Shown here: positions 40,278-43,634 of the stretch, piece by piece
Position numbering within the stretch: position 1 is the stretch's first letter
How the letters are laid out: every line of letters begins with the position of its first letter
Source: Saprospiraceae bacterium
GTDB taxonomy: Bacteria; Bacteroidota; Bacteroidia; Chitinophagales; Saprospiraceae
Length of the DNA: 43,634 nucleotides
Direction: 5' to 3'
Assembly (NCBI GenBank): GCA_030728245.1
Contig: JANQZX010000006.1
Coordinates: 1-43,634 of the forward strand
Translations under genes and position numbers: made by a program
The notes under the pieces: model-generated
What the model saw: the letters and a program-made list of their open reading frames with translations, nothing else
Database searches by the model: none
What the model was told of the DNA's origin: nothing

Positions 40278-41675
40278 CTATTTTGACAATTGCCCTGATG
40301 TCCATAATAAAGTATAATAGCTTTTTAACCAATCGCCTTTTATCTTTATGAATTTCATCGCTATCTCAAGATTCTTCTGTTCTCTGGTATTTAATAAAAA
40401 TACAGAACTTTCTCCCGCGGCAAACTTAATTTTTTCCGCATCCAACAATGCATTTAACTGATTCGTTTGATTTTGAAGATTTCTAACCTGAGCGTCTAAA
40501 ACTTCAAAAGCACTAAAATATTGCTTTGCTTTAGTTATCCAATATTGCGTCTTATCCATTGTTTTGTATTCCCATTCTTCCACTTTATTATCTATCAACT
40601 GTAATTTTCCACGTTCCTTTCTATATAAAATAGGTATTCTTGCCCTTAATCCAAGTTTATAATTATTTTCTAATAAAAAATTATCCGACCTTACATCAAA
40701 CTCCTGATTAAAACTTCGTCCTGTGGCTAATGCATTAAACTGAAGATTCAGATTGGGTTTAAATTGTTCTAAGGCCCATTTTCTTTCCAATTGATATTGG
40801 TTTCCTGTTAGCCTTAAAATCATTAAATCAAAATTACCTTTTAAAGTATTTTCTATCCACACTTCCGAGCTATTCTCTAAGATTGGATCCAACTCACTGG
40901 TAGCGAGGGGGAAATAATTTTCAGGATTAACAGGTTGGTCGTTTTGCCATAAATAGTTACCCATTTCCTGGGTAGCCAACGTGTAATCAAGGGTAACTTC
41001 AAATAGAGAGGACTCTCTGGTTAATACATTCACGTACACCTCCACAGTGTCTATGGTTGGCTTATCACCCTCTAAAAAACTGGTAACCATGTCTTTTAGT
41101 CTGTTCTTAGCCAGAATCAAGGCCTGATTCTGCACATCTCTTTGCTGATAGGAAACGTACCAATTCAGATATGCTTTAGCGGCATCTAACAAAACATCAT
41201 TTTCAACCTGCTCCAAACCTATTTTTTGAATGGTCATATTTAGTTCCGCTTCCCTTAAAATGAGCCTGTATTCGTCAAAAAGAAGGCCTTGAAGCAGAGG
41301 AATATCCATACCTAGTAATGCCTGCCCATTTACCGGTTTTACATCGAGTGGATTTAAAAAACTACCTGAAGTAAAGTCATAGCCGGCCTTAAATTTCATT
41401 CCCCACCTCGTAGGAATAGTTAATTGATTTTCAGAAATAGTATAATAATTTTTACCGTCAAATTTTTTTCTATCAATGGCAAAGTTCAGTGAAGGATCGA
41501 AATTTCCTTTGGCCATCAACAAAAGATTTTGAGATTGCAACCATCTTTGTTTAGCTTCTTTTATCGCGGGGTGCTCCTCAGCGACCCAACGAAGGTATTG
41601 GTTCATAGAAAGAGGCTCCTGAGCCATTCCATATACGCTAAAACAAATAAAGAATAAAAAAATTAACATCCTCAT
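40278..41675 (-). CDS. TolC-family outer-membrane efflux protein
   Basis: The 465-residue protein has a signal peptide (MRMLIFLFFICFSVYGMAQ) and two TolC-type repeats of long helices. Typical parts are MNQYLRWVAEEHPAIKEAKQRW (about 24-45), the strand region LNPLDVKP and a second half with YKLGLRARIPILYRKERGKLQL near residue 339-360. It forms the outer channel of a tripartite pump. It overlaps the HlyD gene by 4 bases (ATGA), so it is coupled to it. The length is normal. Confidence 0.85.
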   Translation of the reverse strand: MRMLIFLFFICFSVYGMAQEPLSMNQYLRWVAEEHPAIKEAKQRWLQSQNLLLMAKGNFDPSLNFAIDRKKFDGKNYYTISENQLTIPTRWGMKFKAGYDFTSGSFLNPLDVKPVNGQALLGMDIPLLQGLLFDEYRLILREAELNMTIQKIGLEQVENDVLLDAAKAYLNWYVSYQQRDVQNQALILAKNRLKDMVTSFLEGDKPTIDTVEVYVNVLTRESSLFEVTLDYTLATQEMGNYLWQNDQPVNPENYFPLATSELDPILENSSEVWIENTLKGNFDLMILRLTGNQYQLERKWALEQFKPNLNLQFNALATGRSFNQEFDVRSDNFLLENNYKLGLRARIPILYRKERGKLQLIDNKVEEWEYKTMDKTQYWITKAKQYFSAFEVLDAQVRNLQNQTNQLNALLDAEKIKFAAGESSVFLLNTREQKNLEIAMKFIKIKGDWLKSYYTLLWTSGQLSK

Positions 41676-43054
41676 TTTACTGATTTGAGTGGCGCTTTAC
41701 CTTTAATTTTCTCTGTTTTCTCTCCTTCAATACCAGAACCATAAAAGTCGGGAGGGAATCCATTTAACTTTCTCCATATTTCGTACCACAAAGGCACATC
41801 GCCCAGAAGAGCAATACCTTGGGCTCCCGAACCCGGGCGAAGTTCTTTTGGCCATTTTTTATTTCTTTCGTCTGCCGCCACTATAATTCTGTACAGTCCA
41901 TTCTCTGATATATCGTTATCAACAGCTGTAATTTTTCCCTCAAACGTACCAAAAGAATTTCCTGGCCAGCCAGAGAAAACGATAGCTGGCCAACCATCAA
42001 AAACAAAGCGTACCTCTTGATTTTTCTCAATAAGAGGAAGGTCCATGGGACGTATATATAACGCAACGGCCAATGGAAAACTAGCTGGCAAGATGGTCAA
42101 TACCGATTCATTTTCCTTTACAATCTCCCCTAAACCTGGCTTTAAAATTCTGGTAATGAAACAATCCTGAGGTGCTGTTATAAAATAAAACCCATTTCTG
42201 ATTTCATAATTTGATGCTTCACTTCTTAGTTTGTCCAAATAGGATTCTGTGTCCATAATGGACGCGCGCGCCGCCGCAATATCAGAGTCAATTTTACTTG
42301 TTTTTTGAATAAAATCATTTAAAATGGCTCGTTCGTCCACTTGTAAATTCACTTTTTCATTTCTGGAAATATTCAGTTTATTTTCGGCCGAATTCAGCTT
42401 TGCTACCAGCTCTTGAATTTTAAATTTTTTCTCTTCTATGTCAGCTATTGATTTAATACCCTTTTCATTTAAAGAAACCGTTCTGTCAAGTTGTATTTTA
42501 GCTATTTGCAAATCAAGTTTAACCCTATTTAAGTCGATACTATCAGCATCTATTTTTAGTGTAATCTGGTAAATTTTATTTTTTATGGTTTGTTGCTTTA
42601 GTAATACTTCACTTTCTATAGCCCGTTGAAAATCGTTTAAAGCCTGAATTTTAGAAAGATACTCTTGAATACTACCCTCTTTATTTACCACACGCGCTTT
42701 AGACCTTGAGACTAAATTCGGATCAAAATAATCGGATTTGACCTCCGAAAGGAATAAAATAGTATCTCCCTTATTTACCCGATCACCTTCCTTTACATAC
42801 CATTGTTCGATTCTGCCAGAAATGGTGGCATCAATGGTTTGAGGTCTGTCGGAAGGATTAAGGGGTATTGTTTTACCCTCGGACTGAATATTTTGCGTCC
42901 AGGGGAGAAATAAGAAAGAGATACCAAAAACAATAAATGTCCAAGTCCAAACTCTAAAAAACAACTTAGCATTGGACGTTTGTGTCTTCTTCAAAGAAGA
43001 GAACGGATAATTTAATGTTTCAACAGGAAGTTTATTATTTGAAATGTTTAACAT
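41672..43054 (-). CDS. HlyD-family membrane fusion protein
   Basis: The 460-residue protein has one N-terminal membrane segment (about 32-51). The first lipoyl half follows (IDATISGRIEQWYVKEGDRVNKGD, 73-96), then a long coiled coil (about 120-265). The second lipoyl half (FITAPQDCFITRILKPGLGEIVKENE, about 283-310) and beta-barrel domains end with a Lys-rich tail. It links the inner-membrane ABC transporter to the TolC channel. It overlaps the TolC gene at 41672-41675 and is 19 bases after the ABC gene. Confidence 0.87.
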   Translation of the reverse strand: MLNISNNKLPVETLNYPFSSLKKTQTSNAKLFFRVWTWTFIVFGISFLFLPWTQNIQSEGKTIPLNPSDRPQTIDATISGRIEQWYVKEGDRVNKGDTILFLSEVKSDYFDPNLVSRSKARVVNKEGSIQEYLSKIQALNDFQRAIESEVLLKQQTIKNKIYQITLKIDADSIDLNRVKLDLQIAKIQLDRTVSLNEKGIKSIADIEEKKFKIQELVAKLNSAENKLNISRNEKVNLQVDERAILNDFIQKTSKIDSDIAAARASIMDTESYLDKLRSEASNYEIRNGFYFITAPQDCFITRILKPGLGEIVKENESVLTILPASFPLAVALYIRPMDLPLIEKNQEVRFVFDGWPAIVFSGWPGNSFGTFEGKITAVDNDISENGLYRIIVAADERNKKWPKELRPGSGAQGIALLGDVPLWYEIWRKLNGFPPDFYGSGIEGEKTEKIKGKAPLKSVK

Positions 43055-43073: not shown

Positions 43074-43634
43074 TCAATAAAATATTTCCTGAAAGTAAGA
43101 ATCGTTTTCTAACTCCCTGAATGATCCTGCGGCATATATGGTACCTGACTTAACAAGTATTATTCGGTCGCATTTTTCAGCTATAATGGGGTCACTTGTT
43201 GAAATAACCACCGTTTTTTCTTTTAAATAGGTGAGTATAAAATCGAATACCTTATGACGTTCCCGTCGATTTAAAAACATAAATTCCCCTTCCGCTAACC
43301 AAAGCGCTGGATTGAAAATAAGACTTCGCGCCAAAATAATCTTTGATTTTGTGCTTTTCGAGATATTTCTACCCTCTGAAACTAAGTGGGTCGAGTACCC
43401 TTTTGGCATTTTCTGAATAGTTTCTGTTAACCCTATGGCATCTGCTACCGGGGTGATTTTATCGAAATTTATATCATTATTCCCCATACATATATTATCC
43501 AAAATCGTACCGTCCTGAATATTTTCATCTGCCAGAAAATGCCCGACCTTACAGCGAATGGCGTTTATATTTAATGAACCAACGGGCATTGTATTAAATA
43601 AAAGCTGACCTTTAATATCTGTATAAAGAATTGA
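43074..43634 (-). CDS. ABC transporter ATP-binding domain, partial, with degenerate catalytic motifs
   Basis: Only the last 186 residues are in the window; the frame stays open to the right edge, so the ATG at 43589 is internal. The order matches the second half of an export-type nucleotide-binding domain. Q-loop-like sequence is followed by DGTILDNICMGN, KMPKGYSTHLVSEGRN and an ARSLIFNP block, and by DRIILVKSGTIYAAGSFREL. The LSGGQ signature is replaced by ISKSTK, the Walker B aspartate by alanine (LWLAEGE), and the switch histidine by serine (VISTSDP). This half probably cannot hydrolyse ATP well and may work beside an active half. It starts an export operon with HlyD and TolC. Confidence 0.8.
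   Translation of the reverse strand, partial: SILYTDIKGQLLFNTMPVGSLNINAIRCKVGHFLADENIQDGTILDNICMGNNDINFDKITPVADAIGLTETIQKMPKGYSTHLVSEGRNISKSTKSKIILARSLIFNPALWLAEGEFMFLNRRERHKVFDFILTYLKEKTVVISTSDPIIAEKCDRIILVKSGTIYAAGSFRELENDSYFQEIFY

Follow-up and report, generated by a model that had tools for sequence, protein, structure and literature searches.

A family of exporters in Bacteroidota retains the fold of an ABC exporter with its residues for ATP hydrolysis lost, beside genes for a HlyD adaptor and a TolC channel, and in one clade of this family the NBD itself is gone. The member described here is encoded at the right-hand end of the window, which is the whole stretch of 43,634 nucleotides that was analysed. 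Judged by sequence, its product very probably performs no ATP hydrolysis and is likely to need no canonical partner, and being driven by an ion gradient is a possibility that we hold at slightly below even confidence. At about even confidence, the pseudo-ABC protein, the HlyD adaptor and the TolC channel would form a tripartite exporter that does not hydrolyse ATP and is probably ion-driven, like SbmA.

The window holds the C-terminal 186 codons and the stop codon of the exporter gene (positions 43074–43634, minus strand; residues 385–570, most of the NBD) as an open reading frame that is still open at the right edge. Starting exactly at the window end (43634; L009:3580–3789) is a scaffold gap of 100 Ns, which splits the gene. 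Because the gap is flanked on each side by the same 55 bases, the gene runs in frame through it, and the remainder, with Walker A and the TMD, lies across the gap and reaches L009:4941. Read in this way, the exporter is a single protein of 570 residues, TMD first and then NBD, which begins at the TMD and has no N-terminal C39 peptidase domain. Full-length orthologues uninterrupted by a gap are present in four genomes of the same genus (L010–L013) and are 93–97% identical. A second gap of 100 Ns, at L009:9934–10033, shows no exact flank duplication of 10–129 bp. Starting 19 bp past the exporter's stop codon is the gene of a HlyD-family periplasmic adaptor (460 residues; 41672–43054, minus strand; PF13437 and PF13533), the end of which is overlapped by 4 bp by that of a TolC-family outer-membrane factor (465 residues; 40278–41675, minus strand; PF02321); the operon with HlyD and TolC described in the initial annotation is thus borne out (40278–43054).

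Both PF00664 and PF00005 score above cut-off in the full-length orthologue L010, placing the protein in the type IV ABC exporter fold. The structure predicted for L051, which is 93% identical to the window protein (alignment of 65), has a pLDDT of 89.6 and a pTM of 0.80, in agreement with the initial view that the fold around the altered motifs is intact, and in Foldseek comparisons the model is close to HlyB (8dck; TMq of 0.92), PCAT1 (0.89) and TM287/288 (0.87). The borders of the TM and coupling helices used below are our assignment from the secondary structure of this model.

Of the features that mark an ATP-driven type IV exporter, the window protein keeps Walker A alone (GDANAGKT), which the initial annotation had suggested seeking to the right and which proved to be intact; the Q-loop, the signature, the Asp-Glu pair of Walker B and the H-loop His are lost. 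At the Q-loop position is Ala419 instead of Gln (43530–43532, on the minus strand as are all motif positions here), the ABC signature reads ISKSTK (residues 475–480; 43347–43364) instead of LSGGQ(K), Walker B reads LWLA-Glu499-Gly500 (43287–43304) instead of hhhh-Asp-Glu, the D-loop Asp is replaced by Asn506 (43269–43271) and the H-loop (switch) His by Ser531 (43194–43196). These positions were called by alignment with relatives and with five canonical exporters from the same genome. The signature and switch substitutions had been correctly recognised in the initial annotation; so had the loss of the Walker B Asp, although not its replacement by Ala, since the alignment places Glu499 at this position and the Ala is the hydrophobic residue one position earlier. 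Additional to the three losses listed there are those of the Q-loop Gln (Ala419), the catalytic Glu (Gly500) and the D-loop Asp (Asn506). The five canonical exporters all keep the Walker A Lys, Q-loop Gln, signature Gln, Walker B Asp, D-loop Asp and H-loop His at the same columns, so chance is no issue for the motif loss; the departures at these motif columns are confined to L043, with Asp instead of the catalytic Glu, and to L041 and L042, in which the first signature Gly is changed. Absence of the substitutions from relatives would have pointed to sequence error, and the four genus orthologues carry identical motifs. With these residues, the window subunit alone can form no canonical catalytic site.

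The degeneracy extends across the family. A homologue is found at E ≤ 1e-60 in 37 of 60 related genomes (own genome counted) and at E ≤ 1e-100 in 99 of 392 genomes drawn from the phylum, and a scan of GTDB genomes confirmed at least 584 relatives (tblastn, E ≤ 1e-3); the 80 of these that were kept we take from their titles to be Bacteroidota, except L122, whose title names no group. The dead-NBD form occurs in cultured genera including Roseivirga, Pontibacter, Cyclobacterium and Olleya. Among 107 distinct members (L051 and L058 were dropped as identical to other loci), the Walker A Lys is kept in 98, the Q-loop Gln in one, and the signature Gln and H-loop His in none. The Walker B Asp position holds Asp in 14 and Glu in 67, and the catalytic Glu position holds Glu in 8 and Asp in 60, the commonest residues, Glu and Asp, thus standing in the reverse of the canonical order. 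In a larger set of 129 degenerate sequences, which still includes five genus members, the H-loop His occurs once, the signature Gln never, and Walker B Asp and Glu occur together once (L184, without the H-loop His). The suggestion in the initial annotation that the ABC domain serves structure or gating only is supported, and the findings go beyond it: catalytic loss is family-wide and one clade has no such domain.

The conservation of TMD and NBD is reversed relative to canonical exporters. Mean pairwise identity among the 129 degenerate members is.536 for the TMD and.340 for the NBD, with the NBD better conserved in 0 of 8256 pairs. A control set, 24 homologues of a single canonical exporter taken from these genomes, gives.387 and.605, with the NBD better in 272 of 276 pairs (near-identical genus members L192–L197 were omitted, leaving 24 of 30 for identity; all 30 served for motifs). 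The gene is under purifying selection: within the genus, dN/dS is 0.028 for the TMD and 0.099 for the NBD (mean dN over mean dS, 10 pairs of five sequences), and at the latter value the dead NBD is still selected.

Close to the canonical state are 12 distant relatives (L139–L150), read out of 31 matching 'same phylum' genomes. All 12 have both the Walker B Asp and the catalytic Glu; the H-loop His remains in 10, and the signature retains its second Gly in 11 and its Gln in 3. Their conservation is intermediate between those of the two sets above, the TMD being slightly ahead (identity of.462, as against.413 for the NBD; NBD better in 26 of 66 pairs). These relatives share the operon type with HlyD and TolC. 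Outside the phylum, plasmid pNL2 of Novosphingobium aromaticivorans (L233:4929–9154) carries an alphaproteobacterial homologue with HlyD and TolC, by which the pseudo-ABC family extends beyond Bacteroidota; read from the translation, its NBD is without even Walker A, and it scores 16.6 bits against ABC_tran (cut-off 25).

Six matches of the phylum search covered the TMD only. All six are complete open frames of 334–360 codons with a stop near the TMD/NBD linker and HlyD and TolC next to them. In three families, selected for the NBD-less copies that the phylum search had revealed in them, NBD-less open frames were found in 27 of 151, 39 of 120 and 23 of 100 genomes (89 of 371 in total, the first six included), as read from match rows by score band and open frame length; the short frames of G566 and G571 were not counted, their scores grouping with NBD-containing proteins. 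From tree neighbours (Arcicella L108; Pontibacter/Adhaeribacter L091, L106, L107 and L123; Sphingobacteriales L111) we infer that the three families are Spirosomaceae-, Hymenobacteraceae- and Sphingobacteriaceae-like. Twenty-six NBD-less loci were read, the six and 20 more, and HlyD and then TolC follow directly in 26 of 26, which rejects frameshifts and contig ends as the origin of the short frames; in 8 of the 26 the open frame overlaps the pattern-found HlyD start. Judged from these frames, the family can do without an NBD.

Relocation of the NBD to another locus is largely rejected. In 24 NBD-less genomes a family NBD profile finds only scores of 1.1e-41 to 9.7e-49, the level of ordinary ABC exporters, as against 4.0e-87 to 4.1e-111 in eight control genomes that were themselves profile members. 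Of 12 NBD-containing genomes outside the profile, 11 were detectable at 1.2e-60 to 1.6e-100 and one, G638, scored only 5.5e-45, like ordinary exporters, so a divergent displaced NBD could escape the search. The best ordinary matches in two of the NBD-less genomes (G646:C21:12812 and G617:C2:100031) lie in frames of about 1010 codons. Two genomes, G613 and G643, hold both an NBD-less and an NBD-containing copy.

In trees of the TMD, the NBD-less proteins are monophyletic (26 of 26; FastTree support of 1.0 with 167 taxa, UFBoot of 100 with 88 taxa). Sister to them is the degenerate protein L172 (UFBoot 97, FastTree 0.79), and further nodes place the clade within the degenerate proteins (UFBoot 99 and 100; FastTree 0.94 and 1.00), the ingroup branch having a support of 1.0 in the unrooted FastTree tree. 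Owing to this nested position, the NBD was lost once, in these data, from an already dead form. Independence from ATP hydrolysis was, on this pattern, most likely acquired stepwise.

The order exporter–HlyD–TolC is nearly fixed in the family. Among named relatives with enough flanking sequence, HlyD is next in 71 of 73 and TolC in 67 of 69; each is present in all 22 degenerate loci from the families with NBD-less members and in all 26 NBD-less loci, and they are present in 11 and 10, respectively, of the 12 distant near-canonical loci. In 40 of 76 named relatives the upstream 1 kb includes a TetR-type regulator gene (TetR_N above cut-off in three of three proteins tested); so it does at 9 of the 22, 7 of the 26 and none of the 12 loci of these sets.

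For the dead half, the initial annotation had envisaged a heterodimeric exporter with one dead site, which the neighbourhoods do not support. A canonical ABC gene on the same strand is near the operon in 1 of 63 degenerate loci (L095), 0 of 22 degenerate loci of the same families, 1 of 26 NBD-less loci (L155) and 2 of 11 distant near-canonical loci (L143 and L149), such neighbours being detected by models built from the five exporters of the window's own genome. In the two distant loci the second large ABC gene is directly upstream on the same strand, in open frames of 992 and 1032 codons. At the window's operon, no second ABC gene is present among the open reading frames within 13 kb to the right, an ABC_tran search found none on that contig between the exporter and position 103041, and the peptidase domain suggested as an alternative find just right of the window was likewise not there. 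Double-glycine leaders, also named at the outset as worth seeking, did not turn up either when about 28 kb at the operon were scanned with one pattern, taking in each frame its first Met alone. The operon has no other transporter gene as a conserved neighbour. An RND pump gene lies near it in 7 of 26 NBD-less loci, and one RND frame (L135:9396–13730) ends in an outer-membrane efflux domain (ACR_tran and OEP).

Of five (overlapping) segments that were compared, only coupling helix 2, which docks the NBD in exporters, shows lower conservation in the NBD-less proteins (2.01 bits in 26 NBD-less proteins versus 1.87 in 22 degenerate proteins of the same families; 1.05 versus 1.26 bits for the TM helices). 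Arg204 is kept in 126 of 129 degenerate and 4 of 26 NBD-less proteins, Phe209 in 128 and 4, and Lys210 in 125 and 0, with Arg in 25 of the NBD-less proteins. Kept at 92% or more in the degenerate, NBD-less and distant groups alike are residues of the TM3–TM5 cytosolic extensions, namely NRFFD (119–123), QK (128–129), Ser189, Lys192, Tyr193, Arg233 and His236. The window protein departs from the family at position 251, with Glu in place of the Lys or Arg found in 119 of the 129 degenerate members.

Buried within the TMD is a set of charged residues that the five canonical exporters of the same genome are missing, except for a Glu in place of Asp137 in one. Lys or Arg133 is present in 12 of 12 distant, 126 of 129 degenerate and 26 of 26 NBD-less proteins, and Asp or Glu137 in 12 of 12, 129 of 129 and 26 of 26. 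Glu or Asp280 and Glu or Asp291 are each found in 11 of 12, 129 of 129 and 26 of 26, and Lys or Arg292 in 8 of 12, 129 of 129 (one Arg) and 26 of 26. Conservation of a buried acid is no proof of ion coupling, and because most of these charges occur in distant relatives with near-canonical NBDs, they may be structural.

On the mechanism that we propose, the window gene product would be the inner-membrane part of the tripartite exporter. Its TMD homodimer may work by alternating access or gating without ATP hydrolysis, driven by an ion gradient through the ionisable residues buried in TM3 and TM6 that are specific to the family (Lys133, Asp137, Glu280, Glu291 and Lys292), and the substrate would then leave through HlyD and TolC to the outside. 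In members like that of the window, the dead NBD pair could still bind nucleotide by means of Walker A and act as a clamp or regulator; purifying selection still acts on the NBD there and most members keep Walker A, so nucleotide may still matter in the window's clade. Both the energy source and the substrate are what we infer from sequence. The pumps of this family probably run on something other than ATP splitting.

An unlikely alternative, in our estimate, is that the pseudo-ABC protein pairs, as a heterodimer or in a larger ring on HlyD, with a canonical exporter that is encoded elsewhere and does all of the ATP hydrolysis. Heterodimeric exporters with one degenerate site are common according to a review, which describes degenerate sites as structural ones beside a live one (PMC7756269). 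Canonical ABC exporters exist elsewhere in the window's own genome, the degenerate clade keeps its coupling-helix residues, and a same-strand canonical ABC gene is near in two distant loci (L143 and L149), one degenerate locus (L095) and one NBD-less locus (L155). However, the models of the five own-genome exporters detect no neighbour of this kind in 62 of 63 degenerate, 25 of 26 NBD-less and 22 of 22 same-family degenerate loci, and one clade has lost the NBD, with drift of its coupling helix 2. The dead half retains its NBD, to our knowledge, in the known heterodimeric exporters. Also improbable is a passive gate or scaffold that has no energy coupling of its own and holds the HlyD–TolC conduit, passing substrate downhill or taking cargo from another transporter. 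That the catalytic residues are lost, and the whole NBD in one clade, would suit such a role, as would the fact that the most constrained parts are the TMD and its cytosolic extensions, the latter near-invariant without the NBD (NRFFD, QK, S-K-Y and R-H). Nevertheless, degenerate and NBD-less members keep the alternating-access fold and the charges buried in TM3 and TM6 almost always, which is beyond the needs of a scaffold, and the operon has no other conserved transporter gene next to it, an RND pump gene being near in 7 of the 26 NBD-less loci.

An exporter that is still ATP-driven, its NBDs hydrolysing ATP through non-canonical residues such as the Glu/Asp swap in Walker B, we consider highly improbable. 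The Walker A Lys (98 of 107 members), the prevalence of Glu and Asp at the Walker B and catalytic positions, and purifying selection on the NBD would all fit this, but nearly every member is missing the Q-loop, signature and H-loop residues at once, with different replacements in different members, and a nested clade lives without the domain. The scaffold gap that breaks the window gene is what could suggest a decaying pseudogene or an assembly artefact, to which we give next to no credence: the 55-bp overlap of the flanks, intact orthologues, a dN/dS far below 1 and relatives across the phylum all speak against it, and sequence error or pseudogene is rejected by the four orthologues with the same motifs together with dN/dS.

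Among the closest known systems are HlyB/HlyD/TolC type I secretion and other type IV ABC exporters that work with an adaptor and TolC, which share the fold and the gene order (exporter–HlyD–TolC), with a homodimer likely; unlike them, the family has an NBD without catalytic residues or none at all. Against the type I secretion model TIGR03375 (cut-off 693.1), full-length L051, L010 and L071 score 179.4, 165.5 and 152.4 bits, and the two pieces of the window gene 70.8 and 81.2 bits, below the cut-off. Non-canonical motifs in a preserved NBD fold are shared with TM287/288, TmrAB, BmrCD and MsRv1273c/72c, but those exporters pair a dead with a live site, whereas this family seldom has a partner gene close by and its only subunit has lost the catalytic positions. 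With the SbmA-like (SLiPT) proteins, the NBD-less clade has in common an ABC-type TMD without an NBD and conserved buried acidic residues, and one of its coupling helices has drifted. SbmA is described as a proton-driven, NBD-less relative of the ABC-type TMD, its authors proposing an origin by loss of the NBD and coupling helices, with SLiPT proteins derived from YddA-like ABC transporters (PMC13316013). Relative to the SLiPT criterion of absent coupling helices, the NBD-less clade shows drift of coupling helix 2 only, and the window gene keeps its dead NBD. SbmA imports and has an extra TM0, whereas the present family keeps a tripartite export operon, and a dead-NBD intermediate survives here in much of a phylum. 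SbmA families gave no match at E ≤ 0.1 in six NBD-less proteins, in which PF00664 matched, together with two weak non-SbmA matches in one of them.

Type IV exporter TMDs without an NBD have likewise been reported to be coupled to ion gradients in LmrA-MD and MsbA-MD (PMC4979069, PMC6155054). MsbA without its NBD is reported to show proton-gradient-dependent ethidium efflux (PMC4979069); for LmrA-MD, ion conduction is reported, with the TM6 residue Glu314 essential in LmrA, though no current was obtained from LmrA without its NBD in that report's ATP experiments (PMC6155054). Those proteins are laboratory truncations, whereas the truncation here is natural and maintained in three families. Our searches of the open-licence literature yielded no description of this family, of an exporter family in which both sites are dead, or of a tripartite ABC exporter that naturally lacks the NBD beside HlyD–TolC.

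Near-canonical, dead-NBD and NBD-less forms coexist in the same HlyD–TolC operon context, and we tentatively suggest that in Bacteroidota a tripartite exporter driven by ATP has been converted, naturally and step by step, into one that is ATP-independent and ion-driven, a second origin of the SbmA principle with the dead NBD as the intermediate that survives. Such an origin, if true, would be independent of SbmA and the first in an export machine that spans both membranes, and a tripartite HlyD–TolC system may then be powered in a way not yet described. The case for useful transport by an ABC-exporter TMD without an ATPase has so far come from the artificial LmrA-MD and MsbA-MD and from SbmA; because the stages survive in one operon context, and the dead-NBD form in named cultured genera, the question is now directly testable. 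A pseudo-ABC protein can stand behind a gene annotated as an ATP-driven exporter, as with the Riemerella copy, which is labelled 'ABC transporter ATP-binding protein'.

Fifteen relatives (L065, L068, L078, L082, L090, L092, L093, L097, L098, L100, L104, L108, L109, L114 and L119) carry an N-terminal extension of about 150 residues. It gave no Pfam match in the four tested and has no conserved Cys among 13 aligned relatives; predicted to be alpha/beta, it shows weak papain-like structural matches only (best E of 1.5e-3; 0.026 for PCAT1), and is perhaps a relic C39-like domain. On a plasmid of Sphingopyxis sp. 113P3 (L234), a gene annotated as an IS3 transposase lies about 360 bp after the exporter TMD match, and going by this annotation the exporter copy looks interrupted. 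In a sequence labelled as a Riemerella anatipestifer plasmid (L236), the exporter operon is surrounded by the housekeeping genes murB, fabG and rsmI, so this sequence may be a piece of chromosome.
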